From positions 806,001-870,000 of the forward strand of contig NZ_JAKRGA010000003.1 in NCBI RefSeq assembly GCF_022347785.1: a stretch of DNA of 64,000 bases, in the 5' to 3' direction. A model generated the notes under the pieces. The model was not told where the DNA came from and did no database searches. It saw nothing but the letters and a program-made list of their open reading frames with translations. Below are positions 8,436 to 41,205 of this stretch, piece by piece. Source of the DNA: Psychrobium sp. MM17-31. Its GTDB lineage: Bacteria; Pseudomonadota; Gammaproteobacteria; Enterobacterales; Psychrobiaceae. Positions within the stretch are counted from its first letter, which is position 1, and every line of letters begins with the position of its first letter. The position numbers and the translations under genes were made by a program.

Positions 8436-11400
8436 ATGAGAAGAATGTTAATCAACGCAACTCAATCTGAAGAGTTGCGCGTCGCCTTGGTCGACGGACA
8501 AAACCTTTATGATCTAGACATTGAAAGTCCGGGTCATGAACAAACCAAAGCCAACATCTACAAGGGTAAAATTACCCGCGTAGAGCCAAGTTTAGAAGCA
8601 GCTTTCGTCGATTACGGCGTAGAGCGCCACGGCTTCTTGCCCCTCAAAGAAATCTCACGCGAATACTTCCCTGAAGGCTACTCGTTCAAAGGTCGTCCTA
8701 GTATTAAGGACGTTATCCAAGAAGGCCAAGAAGTTATCGTACAAATCGATAAAGAAGAGCGCGGCAACAAAGGTGCAGCATTAACAACCTTTATCAGCCT
8801 AGCTGGTGGTTACTTGGTATTAATGCCTAATAACCCACGCGCAGGCGGCATCTCTCGTCGTATTGAAGGCGAAGAGCGCAGCCAGTTAAAAGCGGCATTA
8901 TCGGCACTAACTATGCCAAAAGGCATGGGCGTTATTGTACGTACAGCGGGTGTTGGTAAAGCATCTGAAGAACTACAATACGATTTAGATATCCTAGAGA
9001 ATCACTGGCGCGCCATTAAAAACGCGGCAGAATCTCGCCCTGCTCCGTTTTTAATTCACCAAGAAAGTAACGTGATTGTACGTGCAATGCGCGACTACTT
9101 ACGCCGCGATATTGGTGAAATTCTAATCGATCACCCACGCGTATTTGAAAGCGCACGCGAGCACATCAGTGTTGTTCGTCCTGATTACATCAACCGCATC
9201 AAGCAATACACGGGTGAAGTACCATTATTTACTCACTATCAAATTGAAACGCAGATCGAATCAGCGTTCCAACGCGAAGTTCGCCTACCATCAGGTGGTT
9301 CAATTGTTATCGATCCAACTGAAGCGTTAACCTCTATCGATATTAACTCGGCACGTGCTACCAAAGGCGGCGACATCGAAGAAACAGCGTTTAACACCAA
9401 CTTAGAAGCATCGGTTGAAATAGCACGTCAGTTACGTTTACGCGACCTTGGTGGTCTGGTAGTTATCGATTACATCGACATGAACTCAACTAAGCACCAA
9501 CGCGATGTTGAGAACAAACTACGCGATGCATTAAAAGTAGATCGTGCAAAAATCCAGGTTGGTCGTATCTCGCGCTTTGGCTTGATGGAAATGTCGCGCC
9601 AGCGCATCCGTCCAAGCCTAGGTGAATCAAGCACCCACATCTGTCCACGCTGTACAGGTCAAGGTACTATCCGTGGCAATGAGTCACTAGCGCTATCAAT
9701 CTTGCGTTTGATGGAAGAAGAAGCCATCAAAGATTCAACGTCGCAAATCGAAGCACAGGTTCCGGTAAATGTTGCTGCGTACCTACTTAACGAGAAACGT
9801 AAAGCAATTCGCGTTATCGAAACTCGTCACAATGTAGACGTTGTTATCGTACCTAACGTTAACCTTGAAACGCCTCATTACGAAGTGATTCGTCATCGCA
9901 GCGACGACACAGTCACTGCTGCAACTTACGATCTTGTTAAAGAAGGCGATAACGACGAGCAATACGAGTCTCGTTTACTTAAGTCTTCAATCAGCAAGAA
10001 CGAGCCTGTATTAAAAGGTATTTCTGCACCAGCAACGCCTGCGCCTGAAGCTAAGGCCCCTGCAGCTGAAGAAAAACGTGCTCCACAACAAAACAAACCT
10101 AAGCCGCAACACCGCAAGAAAAAAGAAGAGAAACCTTCTTTATTTGCTCGTATGTTAAAAGCGATTAAAGGTTTATTTGTTGCTGAGGAAGAAGAGAAAG
10201 AGCAAACGAAAAAACCAAACAAGTCGCGTAATCGCAACCGCAATCGCAACCGCAATCGCAACCGCAATTCAAATCAGAACAAGCGTCATACTGATGAGAA
10301 TGACAACCGCGAAAATCGCGATAACCGCAATAAGCGCGATGACAACCGCAATGAATCTGGTGATAGCAAAGAGCGCAAAGATAACCGTCGCAACAAGCAA
10401 CGTAAACCGCGCAACAACAATGCTAAAAACCAAGAGCACAACAAGCAAAACGACGCACCAGCTGCTGAAGAAAAAGTGGCACAACGTCGTCAACGTCGCA
10501 ACAACATGCGTAAGAAAGTTCGCACTGGCGCGCCAGTAGAGCAAGAAGAGCAAGTAACAAGCGACGAAGCTATTGCGTCAACTGAGCAAGCCACTTCGAC
10601 TCAAGCTGTAGAAAGTAAGCCAGTTGAAAAGACAGTTGCTGAAAAAGTTGAAACAAAAGCTGGCGAAGATAAAACGGTTGATGCGAAAGAAACTACATCT
10701 GTAGAAGTACCAACTCAAGAAACTAGCACTGATGAAGCACCTGCGACGCAAGAAACGCCAGCAGCTGAAGAGTCTGGCGAGCGTCGTCGTAATCGTCGTT
10801 CTCCACGTCACCTGCGCTCATCAGGCCAACGTCGTAATCGCCAAGAGCGCAATACCGACGATGCAGTTGAAGCCCGTTACCCAATTAAGACTAATGAAGA
10901 ATTAGCGCAAGAATTGGAACAGGAAAAAGCACAAGCCGTTGCAGCCGTTGAAGCAACTATTGCGGAATCAAGTGAACCAGAAACACCTGCTATCGTTGTT
11001 GACGCCGCGGTTGAAAAAGTGGAAGAAGCACCAGTTGTTGAAACTGCTGTTGAAGAAACTCCAGTTGCTGAAACTGCCGCTGAAGAAGCACCAGTTGTTG
11101 AAGCTGCCGCTGAAGAAGCACCAGTAGTTGAAACTGCCGCTGAAGAAGCACCAGTAGTTGAAACTGCCGTTGAAGAAGCACCAGTAGTTGAAACTGCCGT
11201 TGAAGAAACACCAGTAGTTGAAACTGCCGCTGAAGAAACACCTGTTGTTGAAACTGCCGCTGAAGAAGCACCAGCAGTTGAAACTGCCGTTGAAGAAACT
11301 CCAGCAGTCGAAGCAGTTTCCGAAGAGAAGCCAGCAGCAGCCAAAGGCGGCCGTGCTAGTGCACCAATGACCAAGCCACCAGCGGCTGAAATCATTGTTA

Positions 11401-11528
11401 GCGGTATCGAAATTACCGCGATGCCAAACGAAGCTCGTGCAACTTTTGCTAAGAGCGATCGCAACATTAGCACAGTAGGCGCCACCAGCCGCGCCTCAAG
11501 TGAAGCAACACTAGCCAAAGCCGAATAA
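8436..11528 (+). CDS. rne: Ribonuclease E
   Basis: This is the essential endoribonuclease and scaffold of the RNA degradosome. The catalytic half carries an S1 domain (about 36-120), the DNase-I-like region with the Asp catalytic segment ([11 protein letters not shown]) and the zinc-link CPRCTGQG. The scaffold half has a membrane-targeting amphipathic helix ([14 protein letters not shown], about 570-583, matching E. coli segment A), an Arg/Asn-rich RNA-binding stretch, the [11 protein letters not shown] motif of AR2, and a C-terminal APMTKPP segment like the PNPase site. I start at 8436 ([10 protein letters not shown], as in E. coli) with GGATGAG upstream; an in-frame ATG at 8424 has no good ribosome-binding site. 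Length is about 1030 residues. Confidence 0.96.
10227..10267 (+). repeat. 12-bp tandem repeat (Asn-Arg dipeptide run) in rne
   Basis: About three and a half copies of an AATCGCAACCGC-type unit encode alternating Asn-Arg. They fall in the arginine-rich RNA-binding part of the RNase E scaffold. The run is in frame, so unit number could vary by slippage without breaking the gene. Confidence 0.85.
11022..11321 (+). repeat. Ten 30-bp tandem repeats coding an acidic decapeptide in RNase E
   Basis: Ten in-frame 30-bp units follow the pattern EE(A/T)P(V/A)VE(T/A)A(A/V). The unit starts at 11022 and repeats every 30 bases to 11321; the last unit is the most divergent ([10 protein letters not shown]). 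Neighbouring units differ by only a few bases, which suggests recent expansion. The segment separates the AR2-like region from the PNPase-like motif, so it probably acts as a flexible acidic linker. Confidence 0.93.
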
Positions 11529-11590
11529 GCTAAGTTAGTAAAGCTACTAAAACGAAAAAAGCAGTGGTGAAAGCCACTGCTTTTTTTATG
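11519..11590 (+). repeat. rne 3' end plus terminator, copy 1 of a 72-bp direct repeat
   Basis: This holds the last two rne codons, the stop, and an intrinsic terminator: stem 11561-11567 with 11574-11580, then seven Ts. The same 72 bases recur at 12483-12554, 964 bp downstream, with two mismatches. The stem here is perfect, so this is probably the working rne terminator and the original copy. Confidence 0.9.
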
Positions 11591-11767
11591 CCCATAGCAC
11601 TTATGGTTACCTGATTCCCACTATTCACAATACACAAATAAACTGCATAATAGACTAAGTATTCACTAACAAGACATACTTATTTTTAGCGATGTCGTGA
11701 AGGTGTCGTGGTGCTGTCATCAAAGTTTTGCAATTATCTTTTCGATTATGACAAGCAAAGGAACTAT

Positions 11768-12451
11768 ATGAAAATTTCATCTAAAAAAATCAAAATGCTA
11801 AGAGAAGAAAAAGGTTGGTCTCAAGAACATCTTAGTGAAGCTGCTGGACTTAGTTATCGAACAATACAGCGCATCGAAAAAAGTGGCCAATGCTCTTTAG
11901 AGTCTCAAATGGCTGTAGCCTCCGCCCTACTGGTATCACCAATTGAGTTAGCCGATGAATATAGCCAAACTATCGGCAGCGGCAAAATACAATGGGAAGG
12001 CATTACAGGCATAGTGATTTGCGCATTACTCGTGACACTGAATCTAGCACTTGGCGGCAGTGTTACTATGGCACTCGATGTACCATCATTAGTCATGGCG
12101 ATTATTCTGCCACTAGCGCTATCGTTGCTCTCTAATGGTGCAATGCTTACATGGCAGGCCACTAAAATAATAGGCTGGCTATTTTATGAATCTAAGGGAG
12201 AAAAAGATGTGCACCACACTATTCCTACATTCAGAAAACTCATCATCTACTCCTATGCTTCTGGCTTAATTGGCGCATTGCTCGCACTACTTAGCTCAGT
12301 CAACTTCTACACCGATATGACTCCAATTCAATTTAGCAACTCCATTCAAGTCGCATTACTACCTATTGTTTATAGTGTGTTACTTGCTGAAATTGTGTTT
12401 AGACCAATACAGCACAAGATAAGTCGGTTAGTAGTCGCGCAGGCGAGTTAA
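11768..12451 (+). CDS. XRE-type helix-turn-helix protein fused to a MotA-like four-helix membrane domain
   Basis: The 227-residue protein starts at 11768 with AAAGGA five bases upstream; an upstream in-frame GTG at 11708 lacks such a site. Residues 9-62 form an XRE HTH (LREEKGWSQEHLSEAAGLSYRT). Four membrane segments follow at about 80-97, 104-124, 158-178 and 190-212. The GGSVTMALDVPSL stretch and the final LPIVYSVLLAEIVFRPI resemble the start and end of MotA/ExbB-type channel proteins, but with a short cytoplasmic loop of about 30 residues. It could be a membrane-bound regulator sensing ion flow or membrane state. The gene stands alone between two copies of the rne terminator. MotA kinship is judged by eye. 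Confidence 0.75.
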   Translation: MKISSKKIKMLREEKGWSQEHLSEAAGLSYRTIQRIEKSGQCSLESQMAVASALLVSPIELADEYSQTIGSGKIQWEGITGIVICALLVTLNLALGGSVTMALDVPSLVMAIILPLALSLLSNGAMLTWQATKIIGWLFYESKGEKDVHHTIPTFRKLIIYSYASGLIGALLALLSSVNFYTDMTPIQFSNSIQVALLPIVYSVLLAEIVFRPIQHKISRLVVAQAS

Positions 12452-12482
12452 CAGTTGATCTATGGAAATATAAAATAGTGAT

Positions 12483-12554
12483 AGCCGAATAAGCTAAGTT
12501 AGTAAAGCTACTAAAACGAAAAAAGCAGTAGTGAGAGCCACTGCTTTTTTTATG
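12483..12554 (+). repeat. Duplicated rne tail and terminator, copy 2
   Basis: It matches 11519-11590 at 70 of 72 positions, including the Ala-Glu-stop codons of rne that have no meaning here. One mismatch (A at 12530) breaks a stem pair and the other is in the loop, but the seven-T tail is kept. It sits 31 bp after the XRE/MotA-like gene and probably still terminates it. With copy 1 it brackets that gene. Confidence 0.9.
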
Positions 12555-12618: not shown

Positions 12619-12951
12619 TCACTCTATATTTTTCGTTAATTTAACACCATCGACGACCATAACCCATTTTCCATCAACTTGGTGAGGTACTTCGCTAACA
12701 TCAAAAGTGGTTGTAAAGAAAGCTAATCCCACTACAAAATCTTCTCCCACAAACTCTGTAAGTGGTGCATCAATTGAAGTACGCACACCATCTTTCACTC
12801 GTTGGTACGACACCGTACCGTCAGGTAGTATCAATAAATACATTTCTTTGCTTTGCCACTCTCCAGCATAAGATAACTTGTCCTCTGGAATAGGCTTACT
12901 ACAAGAGCTAATAGATAATACGATAAAAAGTAATAGTGCTAGTTTTTTCAT
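12619..12951 (-). CDS. Small lipoprotein of unknown function
   Basis: A 110-residue protein with a type II signal peptide: KK, a hydrophobic core, then a SISSC lipobox with Cys near residue 17. The mature part is about 93 residues, mostly beta-type, with Gly and Trp spaced like a small lipid- or ligand-binding barrel (GEWQSKEMYLLILPDGTVSY). I do not recognise the family. The ATG follows a good GAGGGAT site. No operon partner is evident; the next minus-strand gene is over 100 bp away. Confidence 0.75.
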   Translation of the reverse strand: MKKLALLLFIVLSISSCSKPIPEDKLSYAGEWQSKEMYLLILPDGTVSYQRVKDGVRTSIDAPLTEFVGEDFVVGLAFFTTTFDVSEVPHQVDGKWVMVVDGVKLTKNIE

Positions 12952-13055: not shown

Positions 13056-13388
13056 TTATTCAAGTTTAAATTCGAGAGTGATGTCAAAACAACGTTCTGC
13101 GTGCTCAGACGTGTTCCATCGCCACCTTTTCACAGCGCGACGAGCTTCTTTGTCAAACAGCCTTTTGGGTGTTGCATCTGTCACCTTAACGTCTTTATAT
13201 ACGCCAAACTGATCAACATAGGCTCTAAGTTTTACAATTCCATTACGTCTACTACCATGGATAATAGGACAGCGTGGAGCAACGTATTTCACAAGCTCAA
13301 AGGGCTCACCAGTACATGACTTCACCAACTCATTTTCAGCTTCATCAACAATGGCTAGGTTTGTTGGGACAAGTAATTCAAGTAACAT
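13056..13388 (-). CDS. Orphan TonB C-terminal-like domain protein without visible membrane anchor
   Basis: The 110-residue product ends in a TonB C-terminal-like fold: a YVAPRCPIIHGSRRNGIVKLRAYVD segment (broken here: Y-V-A-P-R-C-P then G-I-V-K-L), then DVKVTDATP, the F-D-K-E-A helix and a WRWNT strand. Normal TonB proteins have an N-terminal membrane helix and a Pro-rich spacer; neither is present. The start at 13388 has AGGGAT upstream and lies only two bases after the LMW phosphatase stop, so the two are probably translated together. Three Cys residues are present. The function is unknown. Confidence 0.7.
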   Translation of the reverse strand: MLLELLVPTNLAIVDEAENELVKSCTGEPFELVKYVAPRCPIIHGSRRNGIVKLRAYVDQFGVYKDVKVTDATPKRLFDKEARRAVKRWRWNTSEHAERCFDITLEFKLE

Positions 13389-13390
13389 AG

Positions 13391-13855
13391 TTATCCCTGC
13401 TGTGTAATCCAATCCAACAAACCATCACAGCCCTGCTCTACTAGATCTAATACATCTTCAAATCCCTTATCGTGGGAATAATAAGGATCTGGCACTTCGT
13501 GGTTTTCGTTGTCTTTAAACGCGAAATTAAGCAGATAGTGAACTTTGTGGCGTAGATTGGGTGGACAGCGCATCATGACTTCTTCCCAATTATCGTCGTC
13601 CATCAACGCGATGATATCGAAGAATTCAAAGTCGTAATCGGCGATAGGACGTGAGGTGATACCGGAAAAGTCGTAACCACGTGCCTCGCCTGCGGCGATA
13701 GAGCGTGTATCGGGTGGATTGCCAGCGTGGAGTCCTAATGTGCCCGCTGAATCGATGTGTAAATCAATACCTCGTTCGTCTGCTTTTTTGCGCAGCACCG
13801 CCTCAGCGGTTGGCGAACGACATATGTTGCCCATGCATACCATTAAAACTTTCAT
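13391..13855 (-). CDS. Low-molecular-weight protein-tyrosine phosphatase
   Basis: The 154-residue protein opens with the LMW-PTP P-loop C-x5-R-S (Cys7 to Arg13, CMGNICRS) and has the general-acid loop DPYY near residue 121, so the catalytic residues are intact. The family dephosphorylates protein tyrosines, often on capsule tyrosine kinases (Wzb/Etp type) or on stress proteins. No kinase or polysaccharide genes are nearby, so the partner is unknown. It is followed two bases later by a small TonB-domain gene. Confidence 0.93.
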   Translation of the reverse strand: MKVLMVCMGNICRSPTAEAVLRKKADERGIDLHIDSAGTLGLHAGNPPDTRSIAAGEARGYDFSGITSRPIADYDFEFFDIIALMDDDNWEEVMMRCPPNLRHKVHYLLNFAFKDNENHEVPDPYYSHDKGFEDVLDLVEQGCDGLLDWITQQG

Positions 13856-17262: not shown

Positions 17263-17411
17263 TGGATTTCCTTTGACGACAACGCTCTTTAAGGCGTAAT
17301 TTTCACTTGCTATTACAGCCGATTATACCTTGCCGTTAATTAACACTAAACCCCATATTTACTAGGTGTTTAATGGTGATGACACATTGTGAGCAAAGGG
17401 TACATTCATTT

Positions 17412-18463: not shown

Positions 18464-20386
18464 ATGTCGATTTTTAATCACTACAAAGCGCGTTTTGATG
18501 CAACCAAGGAAGAAGAGTTTACGTTAGACGAGTTTCTCTCACTGTGTAAGCAAGACAAATCTTGTTATGCATCGGCGGCTGAACGTTTGCTCATGGCCAT
18601 TGGCGAACCTGAAGTCATCGATACCGCGCAAGATCCTCGCCTGAGCCGCATATTCTCTAATCGCGTTATCAATCGCTACCCCGCTTTCAAAGATTTTCAC
18701 GGCATGGAAGAAGCCATTGATCAAATCGTTTCTTATCTCAAGCATTCTGCCCAAGGCCTCGAAGAGCGCAAGCAAATTATCTATCTACTAGGCCCCGTTG
18801 GCGGCGGTAAATCCTCGATTGCTGAAAAGCTCAAAAGCTTAATGCAGAACATTCCAATTTATCGCCTTAAAGGCTCACCGGTTAACGACCATCCATTGTG
18901 CTTATTTGATGCTACAGAAGATGGTGAAATCTTAGAGCGCGAATACGGCATTGCTAAACGTCATCTCAATACCATCATGTCGCCATGGGCGGTTAAACGC
19001 CTTCACGAATTCGGCGGTGATATTTCTCAGTTTAAAGTCGTTAAATCTTATCCATCAATTCTCGATCAACTGGCCATTGCTAAAACCGAGCCAGGCGATG
19101 AAAACAACCAAGACATTTCCGCTCTTGTGGGCAAAGTCGATATCAGACAATTAGAGCACTTCTCACAAGACGATCCCGATGCCTATTCCTACAGCGGCGC
19201 ACTGTGCCGTGCTAATCAAGGCTTAATGGAATTTGTCGAAATGTTTAAAGCGCCTATTAAAGTGCTACACCCATTATTAACAGCCACTCAAGAAGGCAAT
19301 TACAATGGCACTGAAGGCATTTCTGCTATTCCGTTTAACGGCATTATTCTCGCCCACTCCAACGAATCAGAATGGCAGGCATTTAAAGGCAATAAAAATA
19401 ACGAGGCGTTTTTAGATCGCGTATTCATTGTGCAAGTGCCTTATTGCCTGCGCGTTACCGAAGAAGTGAATATTTACAACAAGCTGCTGGAGCACTCTAA
19501 GCTATGCGATGCTCAGTGCGCGCCAGATACCTTAAAAATTCTCGCTCAATTTAGCATCCTCTCTCGTCTTACCAAGCCATCTAACTCGAGTGTGCAATCG
19601 AAGATGCGAGTGTATGACGGGGAAACCTTAAAAGACACCGATCCTAGCGCCAAGTCACTACAGGAATATAAAGATACCGCAGGCGTTACCGAAGGCATGA
19701 GCGGCCTATCCACCCGCTTTGCGTTTAAAATATTGTCTCGTGTATTTAATTTCGATGATACAGAAATTGCCGCCAACCCAGTCCATCTCTTTTATGTATT
19801 GGAGCAACAGATTGAGCGCGAACAATTTAATGACGATATTCGCGAGCAATATCTCGAGCACCTCAAGGGCTATCTCATTCCCAATTACATCGAGTTTATT
19901 GGCAAAGAAATCCAAACCGCCTACTTAGAGTCTTATTCTGAATACGGCCAAAACATTTTCGACCGCTATGTCACTTACGCTGATTTCTGGATCCAAGATC
20001 AAGAATATCGCGATCCTGAAACAGGTCAGCTATTTGATCGCAACGCCCTTAACGACGAACTAGAAAAAATAGAGAAGCCCGCAGGCATTAGCAACCCGAA
20101 AGATTTTAGAAATGAAATCGTCAATTTCGTATTGCGCGCTAAAGCCAATAATTCTGGTAATAATCCGCAATGGACCAGTTATGAAAAACTGCGCGTAGTT
20201 ATCGAGAAGAAAATGTTCTCTAACACTGAAGACCTACTGCCAGTGATTTCATTTAACAATAAAACCAACGCAGACGATCAGAAGAAGCACGCCGATTTTG
20301 TTGAGCGTATGACGCAAAAAGGTTACACCCAAAAACAAGTTCGCTTGCTCACCGAATGGTATTTACGCGTTCGTAAAGCGTCGTAA
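18464..20386 (+). CDS. yeaG: PrkA-family serine protein kinase (YeaG)
   Basis: The 640-residue protein has an AAA+ core with the Walker A LLGPVGGGKSS at about 108-118 and a C-terminal PrkA kinase-like domain. Length matches E. coli YeaG (644). In enterobacteria YeaG is a stress- and nitrogen-starvation-induced kinase acting with YeaH; in Bacillus PrkA affects sporulation. A very good TAGGAGGT site precedes the ATG, and the next gene, yeaH, starts 12 bp after the stop behind another strong site. This is the first gene of a three-gene operon ending in spoVR. Confidence 0.95.
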   Translation: MSIFNHYKARFDATKEEEFTLDEFLSLCKQDKSCYASAAERLLMAIGEPEVIDTAQDPRLSRIFSNRVINRYPAFKDFHGMEEAIDQIVSYLKHSAQGLEERKQIIYLLGPVGGGKSSIAEKLKSLMQNIPIYRLKGSPVNDHPLCLFDATEDGEILEREYGIAKRHLNTIMSPWAVKRLHEFGGDISQFKVVKSYPSILDQLAIAKTEPGDENNQDISALVGKVDIRQLEHFSQDDPDAYSYSGALCRANQGLMEFVEMFKAPIKVLHPLLTATQEGNYNGTEGISAIPFNGIILAHSNESEWQAFKGNKNNEAFLDRVFIVQVPYCLRVTEEVNIYNKLLEHSKLCDAQCAPDTLKILAQFSILSRLTKPSNSSVQSKMRVYDGETLKDTDPSAKSLQEYKDTAGVTEGMSGLSTRFAFKILSRVFNFDDTEIAANPVHLFYVLEQQIEREQFNDDIREQYLEHLKGYLIPNYIEFIGKEIQTAYLESYSEYGQNIFDRYVTYADFWIQDQEYRDPETGQLFDRNALNDELEKIEKPAGISNPKDFRNEIVNFVLRAKANNSGNNPQWTSYEKLRVVIEKKMFSNTEDLLPVISFNNKTNADDQKKHADFVERMTQKGYTQKQVRLLTEWYLRVRKAS

Positions 20387-28235: not shown

Positions 28236-29433
28236 TGTTAACTCCATAAGCACTTGCTGGAGTCGCTAACATCTTGGCCATCAAGGTATCGCTAGCGTCT
28301 TTTGCCACCGTATCAATCATCACTCGATCAGTATTGTCGCCCATTTCGTAAGTGATAGCGTGAACGCCAAACGTATCTGCAATATACTGCTTGAAAACCC
28401 CTTTGTTTGGATTAGAGCCGGGCTTACCGAATACGGTAAATCCTTGTGGGGTCACTTTGGCAAGACGCTCAAGCCACTTTTCAACAAAATGAGGTGGTTT
28501 TAATCCGTAATCAGACGGCATGGTGTAAAACACATCTTTATACGTCGAGTGAAAGTCAGCGGCGAAACGAATTTTTCCTCCCGCGTTAACGATGGCTTGC
28601 AGTTTATCTCGCACTAGTCGAGATTCTACTTGGGCAAATTTTTTCCAATCTCGATTCAAATCTACGCCATTAGCATTATGACGCCAATTGCCATGTGCAA
28701 CGCCGTCCGGATTGAGATTGGGCACCACCAAGATGTTATAGCGTTTTCGAAATTCAACCCCACGCTCACCGACTAAATTATCCACAAAAGGAAATAACGC
28801 CAAAGCACCAGTAACTTCAGGTGGGTGCATACGACCTAAAATAACTAACCATTCATCATTGCCCTTTGAAGAGGCTTCCAACATCGAGATATTGCGACCT
28901 TGAGTTGATTTCCCCAATACCGAAACCTTACCTTTGCCGTCTGACTGCAATTGCTTAAGCCATTTATCATAAGCAGCATTAGTAACAATTTCTTGAGCAG
29001 CAATATAAGTTTCACGCGCAGTGGCATCTATTTTAAAACGTAACTGCTTGGCTGACGCTTTGTGCGCTACAACTTGCCAAGTCTTACCGTCGATACTCAT
29101 TTTCGGACTGTAACGGTGTTTGCCGTGAATATAATTTATAACCACTTCTAGTTGTTGCGGCTGCTTTGCATAGTATTTAAACGCATACCAAGGGCTGGGA
29201 TTAATCGGCTTATTTTCAGGTGAAATTGCAATAGTCACTCGCTTTTCGTTAATGTCACAACCATTAACTCTGGCCGTATCAAAGTTGTAATCAATAACGA
29301 CATTACCGTTGGTACATTGATTGACACCAGAGGCAATATTTGCCGAATCACTTATCGTAGATTGTGCAGGCGTTGTGGTATTGCACCCCGCAATAACACC
29401 GAATACTAAAATTGAAGCGATATAATTTTTCAT
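28222..29433 (-). CDS. M14 zinc carboxypeptidase lipoprotein, cytosolic-carboxypeptidase-like (paralogue 1)
   Basis: The 403-residue lipoprotein has a lipobox (GVIAGC) and an N-terminal beta-sandwich region of about 110 residues (PWYAFKYYA...INYIHGKHRYSPKMS) that resembles the domain preceding the catalytic part of CCP/Nna1-type M14 enzymes. Zinc ligands are His203 and Glu206 in HPPE and His295 in DFHST; the catalytic Glu363 is in TYEMG; NPDG and NRDWK carry the substrate-binding Asn/Arg. CCP enzymes are best known for removing glutamates, which fits the D-Glu genes nearby. The ATG at 29433 is preferred to a TTG four codons earlier. A terminator-like hairpin precedes it. Confidence 0.88.
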   Translation of the reverse strand: MKNYIASILVFGVIAGCNTTTPAQSTISDSANIASGVNQCTNGNVVIDYNFDTARVNGCDINEKRVTIAISPENKPINPSPWYAFKYYAKQPQQLEVVINYIHGKHRYSPKMSIDGKTWQVVAHKASAKQLRFKIDATARETYIAAQEIVTNAAYDKWLKQLQSDGKGKVSVLGKSTQGRNISMLEASSKGNDEWLVILGRMHPPEVTGALALFPFVDNLVGERGVEFRKRYNILVVPNLNPDGVAHGNWRHNANGVDLNRDWKKFAQVESRLVRDKLQAIVNAGGKIRFAADFHSTYKDVFYTMPSDYGLKPPHFVEKWLERLAKVTPQGFTVFGKPGSNPNKGVFKQYIADTFGVHAITYEMGDNTDRVMIDTVAKDASDTLMAKMLATPASAYGVNNEAK

Positions 29434-40023: not shown

Positions 40024-41205
40024 TCATTTTTGAATCTTTAACAGGTTATCCATCAAAGTTTTACTCGCAGCCTTTGCAACGTCCTCAATAACTTGTCGAT
40101 TGGTATTATCACCCATTTCATAAGTGATCGCGTGAACCTTATAAGTGTCAGCAATAAATTGTTTAAACACACCAACGTTACTGGTGCCGGGTTTGTTATT
40201 GACGGTAAACTGCGGCACTTCTTGTGCTAACTGAGCTAGCCATTGCTCAACCAGCAATGGTGGCTTAATACCATAGTCAGATGGCAAGGTATAAAACACA
40301 TCGCGGTGAGTGGAGTGAAAGTCGACAGCAAACGCTATTTTGTCACCGCGATTAGTAATTTGATTAAGCTTATTGCGCACTAGGCGGGTTTCTACTTGTT
40401 TAAAGGATTTCCAATCGCGATTGAGATCAACACCATCGGCATTGTGACGCCAGTGTCCATTAGCAACACCATCAGGATTAAGGTTTGGCACTACCAAGAT
40501 ATTAAAGCGCTCTCTAAACGCCTGTCCTTGCTCGCTTAACAACACATCAACAAAAGGAAATAACGCCAGCGCACCGGTGACCTCTGGCGGATGCATTCTC
40601 CCAAGCACAATCAACCACTCTTTATCATTGGCATTGGCGATTTCCAGCGCAGTAATATCGCGCCCTTGAATTGATTTACCTAAGCTCGCGACAACAATGT
40701 CCCCGCGATGGCGATATTGTTCAATCCATTGCTTATAAGCATGGTTATCGACAATCTCTTGCCCTGCTATATAACGTGCTTGTTGTGATGTTTCAACGGT
40801 AAATGTTAACTGCGATTTAGTCGAAGTGTATTCTAGTTCACGCCAACTTTTGAGGTTATCACTAACTTTTGGTGCGTAACGATGACTACCAGCTTGATAA
40901 TTGATTTCAATCTCAGTGTCCTGCACTCGCGCCGAGCTTATTTTAAACGCATACCACGCACTATCGTTAATCGGCGTGTTTTCAGGAGTTATGGTCAAAG
41001 AAACCTTATTGGCCGTGATTTCACAACCGTTAACTCGTGCATTGTCAAAACTATATTCAACGAATATGCCTAATGAAGAGCAGCTTGTTTGCCCCGAAAT
41101 TGATTTTAGCGCTGCGATTGAGCCATCGATATTGGCAGGTAAAGCGCGCTGCTGACAGGCAGATAGTGAGAATAAGACAACTAGCCCCATGGCTACTTTA
41201 AACAT
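40024..41205 (-). CDS. M14 zinc carboxypeptidase lipoprotein, paralogue 2
   Basis: The 393-residue lipoprotein (lipobox LSAC) shares its whole architecture with the M14 protein at 28222-29433: the same N-terminal beta-sandwich (SAWYAFKISSA, INYQAGSHRYAPKVS), HPPE zinc motif with His205 and Glu208, NLNPDG, DFHSTH and TYEMG. The two are clear paralogues at opposite ends of the locus. Two copies may differ in linkage or chain-length preference. The ATG at 41205 is preferred over a TTG three codons upstream, though the ribosome-binding site is poor. It begins 24 bp after the ycgN stop and has no operator of its own. Confidence 0.85.
   Translation of the reverse strand: MFKVAMGLVVLFSLSACQQRALPANIDGSIAALKSISGQTSCSSLGIFVEYSFDNARVNGCEITANKVSLTITPENTPINDSAWYAFKISSARVQDTEIEINYQAGSHRYAPKVSDNLKSWRELEYTSTKSQLTFTVETSQQARYIAGQEIVDNHAYKQWIEQYRHRGDIVVASLGKSIQGRDITALEIANANDKEWLIVLGRMHPPEVTGALALFPFVDVLLSEQGQAFRERFNILVVPNLNPDGVANGHWRHNADGVDLNRDWKSFKQVETRLVRNKLNQITNRGDKIAFAVDFHSTHRDVFYTLPSDYGIKPPLLVEQWLAQLAQEVPQFTVNNKPGTSNVGVFKQFIADTYKVHAITYEMGDNTNRQVIEDVAKAASKTLMDNLLKIQK

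Follow-up and report, generated by a model that had tools for sequence, protein, structure and literature searches.

We analysed a window of 64,000 bases from the genome of Psychrobium sp. MM17-31, in which an intact gene for ribonuclease E (rne) is followed by two copies of a 72-base direct repeat, here called A and B, that bracket one regulator gene (Table 1). Copy B sits between the regulator gene and a convergent lipoprotein-like gene, which gave no match in Pfam, NCBIfam or PHROGs and is followed on the same strand by a TonB_C-domain gene and a gene for a low-molecular-weight phosphatase (LMWP). Other repeats in the window include in-frame 30-base repeats in the C-terminal region of rne (11022-11312; 9.7 copies, 90% matches) and two segments about 11.8 kb apart (28267-28917 and 40039-40683) that are 67% identical over 660 bases.

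Table 1. Features of the rne locus, in coordinates of the 64,000-base window.
Feature	Position	Strand	Basis
rne, ribonuclease E, 1034 aa, intact to the stop codon	8424..11528	+	NCBIfam PRK10811, 1134.7 bits (cut-off 908); ORF list
Copy A: final 10 coding bases of rne, with predicted terminator-like hairpin (11555-11586)	11519..11590	+	Repeat comparison, folding
Segment between the copies, 892 bases	11591..12482	.	39.9% G+C vs 43.2% in the window
XRE-type regulator gene, 227 aa	11768..12451	+	Pfam HTH_3, 32.5 bits
Copy B: rne-tail relic and predicted terminator-like hairpin (12519-12550)	12483..12554	+	Repeat comparison, folding
Small lipoprotein-like gene adjoining copy B	12619..12951	-	N-terminus read by eye
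TonB_C-domain gene, start taken as the ATG at 13386-13388	13056..13388	-	Domain match
Low-molecular-weight phosphatase (LMWP) gene	13391..13855	-	Domain match

The two copies align over 72 bases without gaps, with 70 identical positions (97.2%) and a start-to-start distance of 964 bases (E 7e-28 in a self-comparison of the window). Together with a whole-genome search, this bears out the duplication as it was given in a preliminary description of the locus. Seven further bases to the left of the copies, of which four match, extend the repeat to the 79-base family D4. In the whole-genome search, an 81-base query gave meaningful scores at copies A and B only (E 6e-29); the next-best match (E 0.08) was the inverted image of the query's own hairpin, and no third copy of the rne tail and terminator was found in the 4.17 Mb of the genome. 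The edges of the repeat are sharp, with the flanking sequences on either side matching at chance level only: the right-hand flanks are unlike each other, with 214 of 300 shuffles scoring as well, while to the left just TAG and scattered bases match, and no clear microhomology was found at the junctions.

The repeat consists of a coding part of 10 nt and a 3' part of 62 nt, and copy A reads, in order, 10 coding bases of rne, 26 further bases and the terminator-like hairpin. Copy B does contain the duplicated Ala-Glu-stop that had been described earlier, but the coding remnant is fuller than this and starts with the last base of the preceding Lys codon. An orphaned 3' relic of rne, made up of these 10 coding bases and the terminator, is thus present behind the gained gene.

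Both hairpins are predictions, and they may act as terminators. On the + strand, the 72-nt sequences of A and B were predicted to fold with -24.9 and -18.3 kcal/mol, respectively, and on the - strand with -22.3 and -20.0 kcal/mol. Copy B folds worse on the + strand and nearly equally well on the - strand because one of the two differences between the copies falls in the stem, where it unpairs a single position on the + strand while the - strand retains a G-U pair. Since the hairpin is preceded by an A tract and followed by a T tract, copy A could act on both strands.

The regulator gene is the sole substantial gene in the segment between the copies, the rest being small overlapping frames. We classified its product as XRE-type because its Cro/C1-type helix-turn-helix scores above the Pfam cut-off of 23 bits for HTH_3. 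This domain is N-terminal and a hydrophobic region is C-terminal, and the protein may be a membrane-bound regulator; a structure model of the protein alone was poor, with a mean pLDDT of 46.7. The C-terminal part scored 27.7 bits against the NCBIfam PomA model, far under its cut-off of 341, and a profile comparison with five sequences from the genus, found as matches to this part of the regulator and putatively named motor-protein-like, gave a probability of 73%. No stator family was among the best 25 of the 27 Pfam families returned for an alignment of the regulator and nine relatives (10 members). Membership of the MotA/PomA stator subunits was not supported, given a score below the curated cut-off and a similarity that is confined to remote profile matches. 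Nothing was found in the open-licence literature on helix-turn-helix, MotA, ExbB and XRE family together.

We also examined the region downstream of rne in eight other genomes of the genus. The junction was readable in four of these, G001, G002, G007 and G008, with the tail and the start of rne on different contigs in G007. In the other four, the reading frame leaves the contig (G006), the match lies 968 bases from the downstream contig end (G005, a limit judged from coordinates), just a fragment is present at a contig end (G004), or the search gave a 37% relative only (G003). All four readable junctions, which are from other species, have a single terminator, no such regulator and no second copy of the tail, the latter as judged from self-comparisons of the available stretches at E 1e-6; nor was any other cargo seen between 72-base copies in these four of the eight relatives. 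An arrangement shared by all close relatives, with both copies diverged, had been named beforehand as what would count against the proposed insertion or duplication, and the opposite was observed in the four readable genus relatives, albeit of other species.

The gene content beyond rne differs among the genomes. The next gene is LysR-like in G001 and G007, and the next recognisable gene encodes the LMWP in G002 (56% identity) and G008 (matched over residues 70-153 only). The lipoprotein-like protein has 81-82% identity in G001 and G007. In G001, about 4.4 kb separate rne from the lipoprotein-like gene, which comes before the LMWP gene, and about 9.6 kb separate it from the TonB_C gene, which adjoins the LMWP gene; the lipoprotein-like and TonB_C genes were therefore probably in the interval before the regulator was. 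An 893-base query for the insert found no convincing DNA match among the eight relatives, the best one spanning 28 bases (E 0.009). At the protein level, the matches to the regulator in these genomes were all partial and mostly confined to the motor-like part or the helix-turn-helix; a match in G002 extends over residues 47-220 at 25% identity, with two stops inside. The compared sequences support the view that gene content varies at the site just beyond the rne terminator and that the gain is lineage-specific. Of the reading put forward in the preliminary description, the gain between the copies in this lineage thus stands, with the regulator absent from all four readable relatives, and its two routes, insertion and duplication with loss, are both possible.

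A search of 393 other genomes of the order (394 including our own, E limit 1e-8) identified near-full-length relatives of the regulator in nine, the best matches being 29-38% identical. The alignment comprised the window protein and these nine relatives, one of which (in G136) was counted with an internal stop; three further long matches of lower score occur in these nine genomes. An invariant Glu and an invariant Arg near the end (E208 and R212 in the window protein) are seen in the whole family (window protein and L082-L090). The nine loci have several different surroundings, with L086, L087 and L089 having common neighbours that we read as histidine-utilisation-like genes. A look for the same regulator elsewhere between terminator copies had been suggested earlier, and none of the nine loci has flanking repeats (E 0.01, about 1.5 kb on each side). 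A scan of genome contigs gave 13 loci that match the helix-turn-helix part only. Likewise, three loci in viral contigs matched in the helix-turn-helix only, and no full-length relatives were found there by a pattern scan that reaches close relatives. A plasmid search returned 73 records with helix-turn-helix matches, none covering 80% of the query among the matches listed (best 15 of 73), and a phage search with the regulator protein gave no match. With viral and plasmid matches restricted to the helix-turn-helix and none in phages, the regulator was rejected as mobile cargo.

The frequency of gene-tail copies was estimated from the window and 39 further 20-kb stretches of the same genome, in total 844,000 bases with 639 reading frames of at least 100 aa after an overlap filter. 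We counted gene ends (at least 8 coding and at least 20 downstream bases) with a second occurrence at E 1e-4 that is no more than 5 kb away and on the same strand. Five of the 639 frames qualified, namely rne, rplS, one frame in stretch L136 and two in stretch L146, and among these five only rne has an unrelated gene between the tail copies. The rplS gene (ribosomal protein L19, a name read from the sequence) is followed by two further tail copies in our genome, and 3 of the 8 relatives have one each. The copies begin about 56 bases before the gene end in our genome (84% and 82%), G001 (88%) and G008 (98.5%), and the single degenerate copy in G007 begins 39 bases before the gene end (79%). For the remaining five of the nine genomes, a search of up to 1,300 bases downstream revealed no tail copy, and repeats in G004 occur only further downstream. 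The array (L113:9746-10594, corresponding to G000:C3:609746-610594; see also L155, L156 and L157) is possibly an old one that has been kept alike by slippage or conversion.

Of the other qualifying frames, the one in L136 is a 777-aa gene, probably of the GGDEF/EAL kind from its sequence, the tail and downstream region of which are tandemly duplicated (L136:7403-7706, 82% over 149 bases). The two in L146 (L146:6229-11213) are copies of one transposase-like gene of 326 aa, possibly REP-associated, whose downstream parts are repeated. Stretch L112 contains a 43-base terminator-like pair (17321-17363 and 19584-19626, 88%) without copied codons that brackets two genes, hydrolase-like and sigma-factor-like as judged from their sequences, and bracketing by like terminators is hence not unique to rne. 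Because tail duplication recurs in this group, the rne case needs no special machinery.

Our preferred explanation, held tentatively and with somewhat less than even confidence, is that the regulator arrived through a single event of homology-facilitated illegitimate recombination, a process reportedly known from a study of conjugation in E. coli. Incoming DNA from a related strain would have contained the rne end, the terminator and then the regulator as the next gene. The donor rne would have paired with the resident rne, with a crossover somewhere upstream, and the other end of the donor DNA, sharing hardly any or no homology with the resident DNA, would have been joined to it a few bases short of the rne stop codon. 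The outcome would be an intact rne with the tail and terminator of the donor (copy A), followed by the regulator, the resident tail and terminator orphaned behind it (copy B), and then the old downstream genes. Copy B would serve as a shared terminator for the regulator and the convergent lipoprotein-like gene, and the 72-base repeats would allow RecA to excise the regulator again with rne left whole. The donor, the order of events, the action of the hairpins as terminators and the excision are what we infer.

A single event of this type would account for an undamaged rne, for the relic of its tail, for sharp edges to the left and right, and for the change of neighbour. A donor with a different neighbour is to be expected, since the downstream content varies by lineage (LysR-like, LMWP, regulator). 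The 2 differences in 72 positions are compatible with the alleles of two strains, and equally with later mutation. The genome encodes a ComEC-type Competence protein, but because such matches are common in controls (10 of 14 control genomes, including E. coli), the support for DNA uptake is weak; it permits the event and does not prove it. Other points count against the single event. According to PMC5361080, plain homologous recombination is more frequent by orders of magnitude than homology-facilitated illegitimate events, the tandem tail duplications at rplS and the L136 gene make duplication-based alternatives credible, and the junctions show no conspicuous microhomology.

The first of these, which we consider possible though unlikely, is that a 964-base unit consisting of the rne tail, the terminator and the regulator was tandemly duplicated, and that the second regulator was then lost from just beyond terminator B. 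The repeat itself needs no donor in such a scheme and its endpoints can be arbitrary, which fits with the occurrence of tandem tail duplications at rplS and the L136 gene, but two events are needed and recombination between long tandem copies would normally delete copy B too. Furthermore, no remnant of a second regulator was detected in the 64 bases from copy B to the lipoprotein-like gene (score 19 against a shuffle mean of 17.65, with 78 of 300 shuffles as good).

Alternatively, the rne tail and terminator could have been tandemly duplicated first, as at rplS, and the regulator inserted later between the copies. Tandem rplS tails are present in our own genome (two) and in G001, G007 (degenerate) and G008 (one each), and arrays of this kind offer repeated homology for later insertions. 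However, the unlike right flanks of A and B imply that the copies abutted almost exactly and that the insertion struck that very boundary, and a bare duplication of the rne tail was seen in none of the four readable relatives. We judge this order of events to be unlikely, slightly more so than the first alternative. It is improbable that the pattern is more general, such that slippage at strong terminators keeps copying the tails of housekeeping genes (rne, rplS and others) and the copies serve as RecA homology ports for accessory genes. The essential gene would then always be restored and the newcomer given its own terminator, giving cassettes without a recombinase.

Site-specific integration of a tiny element, or of the remnant of a larger one, could also leave the observed arrangement if the 72 bases were an attachment core that restores the rne end and the recombinase acted in trans. 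The hallmark of integrative elements is a gene end that is both restored and directly repeated, and helix-turn-helix genes are common among their cargo. Those that rebuild a gene 3' end leave the host gene intact and the added DNA flanked by direct repeats of that end, and the same is seen at rne, where the flanking repeat matches at 70 of 72 bases. Unlike such elements, the rne locus has no integrase between the copies and no element-sized cargo, and no other cargo was seen at this repeat in the four readable relatives. The two genes of the Phage_integrase family in the genome, probably XerC and XerD, are located on contigs C2 and C4. The statement that no recombinase is present holds near the locus for the Phage_integrase family, which was the one searched for, and a hotspot for a tyrosine integrase was rejected on this basis. 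The segment has no terminal inverted repeats, the nine relatives of the regulator are without flanking repeats, and the searches of viral contigs, phages and plasmids gave no full-length relative. The suggested likeness to integrating elements thus found no support, and we regard an element of this kind as very improbable. A transposon or insertion sequence was rejected on the basis that no transposase is encoded between the copies and that an end-to-end inverted comparison (80 bases each) was at chance level (152 of 300 shuffles). Finally, an assembly artefact or a chance likeness is scarcely credible: hairpins of terminators with A/T tracts often resemble each other, as in the L112 pair that brackets two genes, but the rne match is far beyond chance in the whole genome (E 6e-29) and spans the 10 coding bases and the 26 bases before the hairpin, and the short repeat lies inside an 884-kb contig.

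The single event that we favour would share three features with known cases of homology-facilitated illegitimate recombination: homology that anchors one side, a putative illegitimate join at the opposite side, and a resident 3' end orphaned downstream. The same logic has been proposed for the immunity-gene arrays of the type VI secretion system (T6SS) in Vibrio cholerae, where the old effector 3' end is displaced behind the newcomer (PMC5361080). At our locus, in contrast to these arrays, a housekeeping gene, rne, provides the anchor, its relic consists of a short tail plus a terminator, and the event is inferred rather than observed. PMC2884548 gives 10-18% of the small variable segments in its data sets as flanked by direct repeats, with 66-94% of these repeats shorter than 30 bases, and recombination between flanking repeats as explaining part of the segment variability. 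The rne segment is similar to these in that it is short, lies between direct repeats and would be removable by recombination, and differs from them in that the 72-base repeat is a gene tail with a terminator and in being known from one strain. The tandem rplS tails of the genus are likewise copies of last codons and a terminator downstream of an intact housekeeping gene, but they are adjacent without a gene, whereas those at rne flank one. In the open-licence literature, nothing apparently relevant to terminator or gene-tail duplication was found among the matches listed; we do not claim that it is absent in print.

Most likely, the locus is a lineage-specific and readable scar of gene gain, produced by an ordinary kind of rearrangement and not by a new mobile element, and the rne case alone alters no accepted view. 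The scar illustrates how a bacterium can gain a regulator behind an essential gene that is left unharmed, with the terminator relic marking the event. Together with the rplS copies, it suggests that gene-tail duplications are frequent enough in this genus to merit a genome-wide count.
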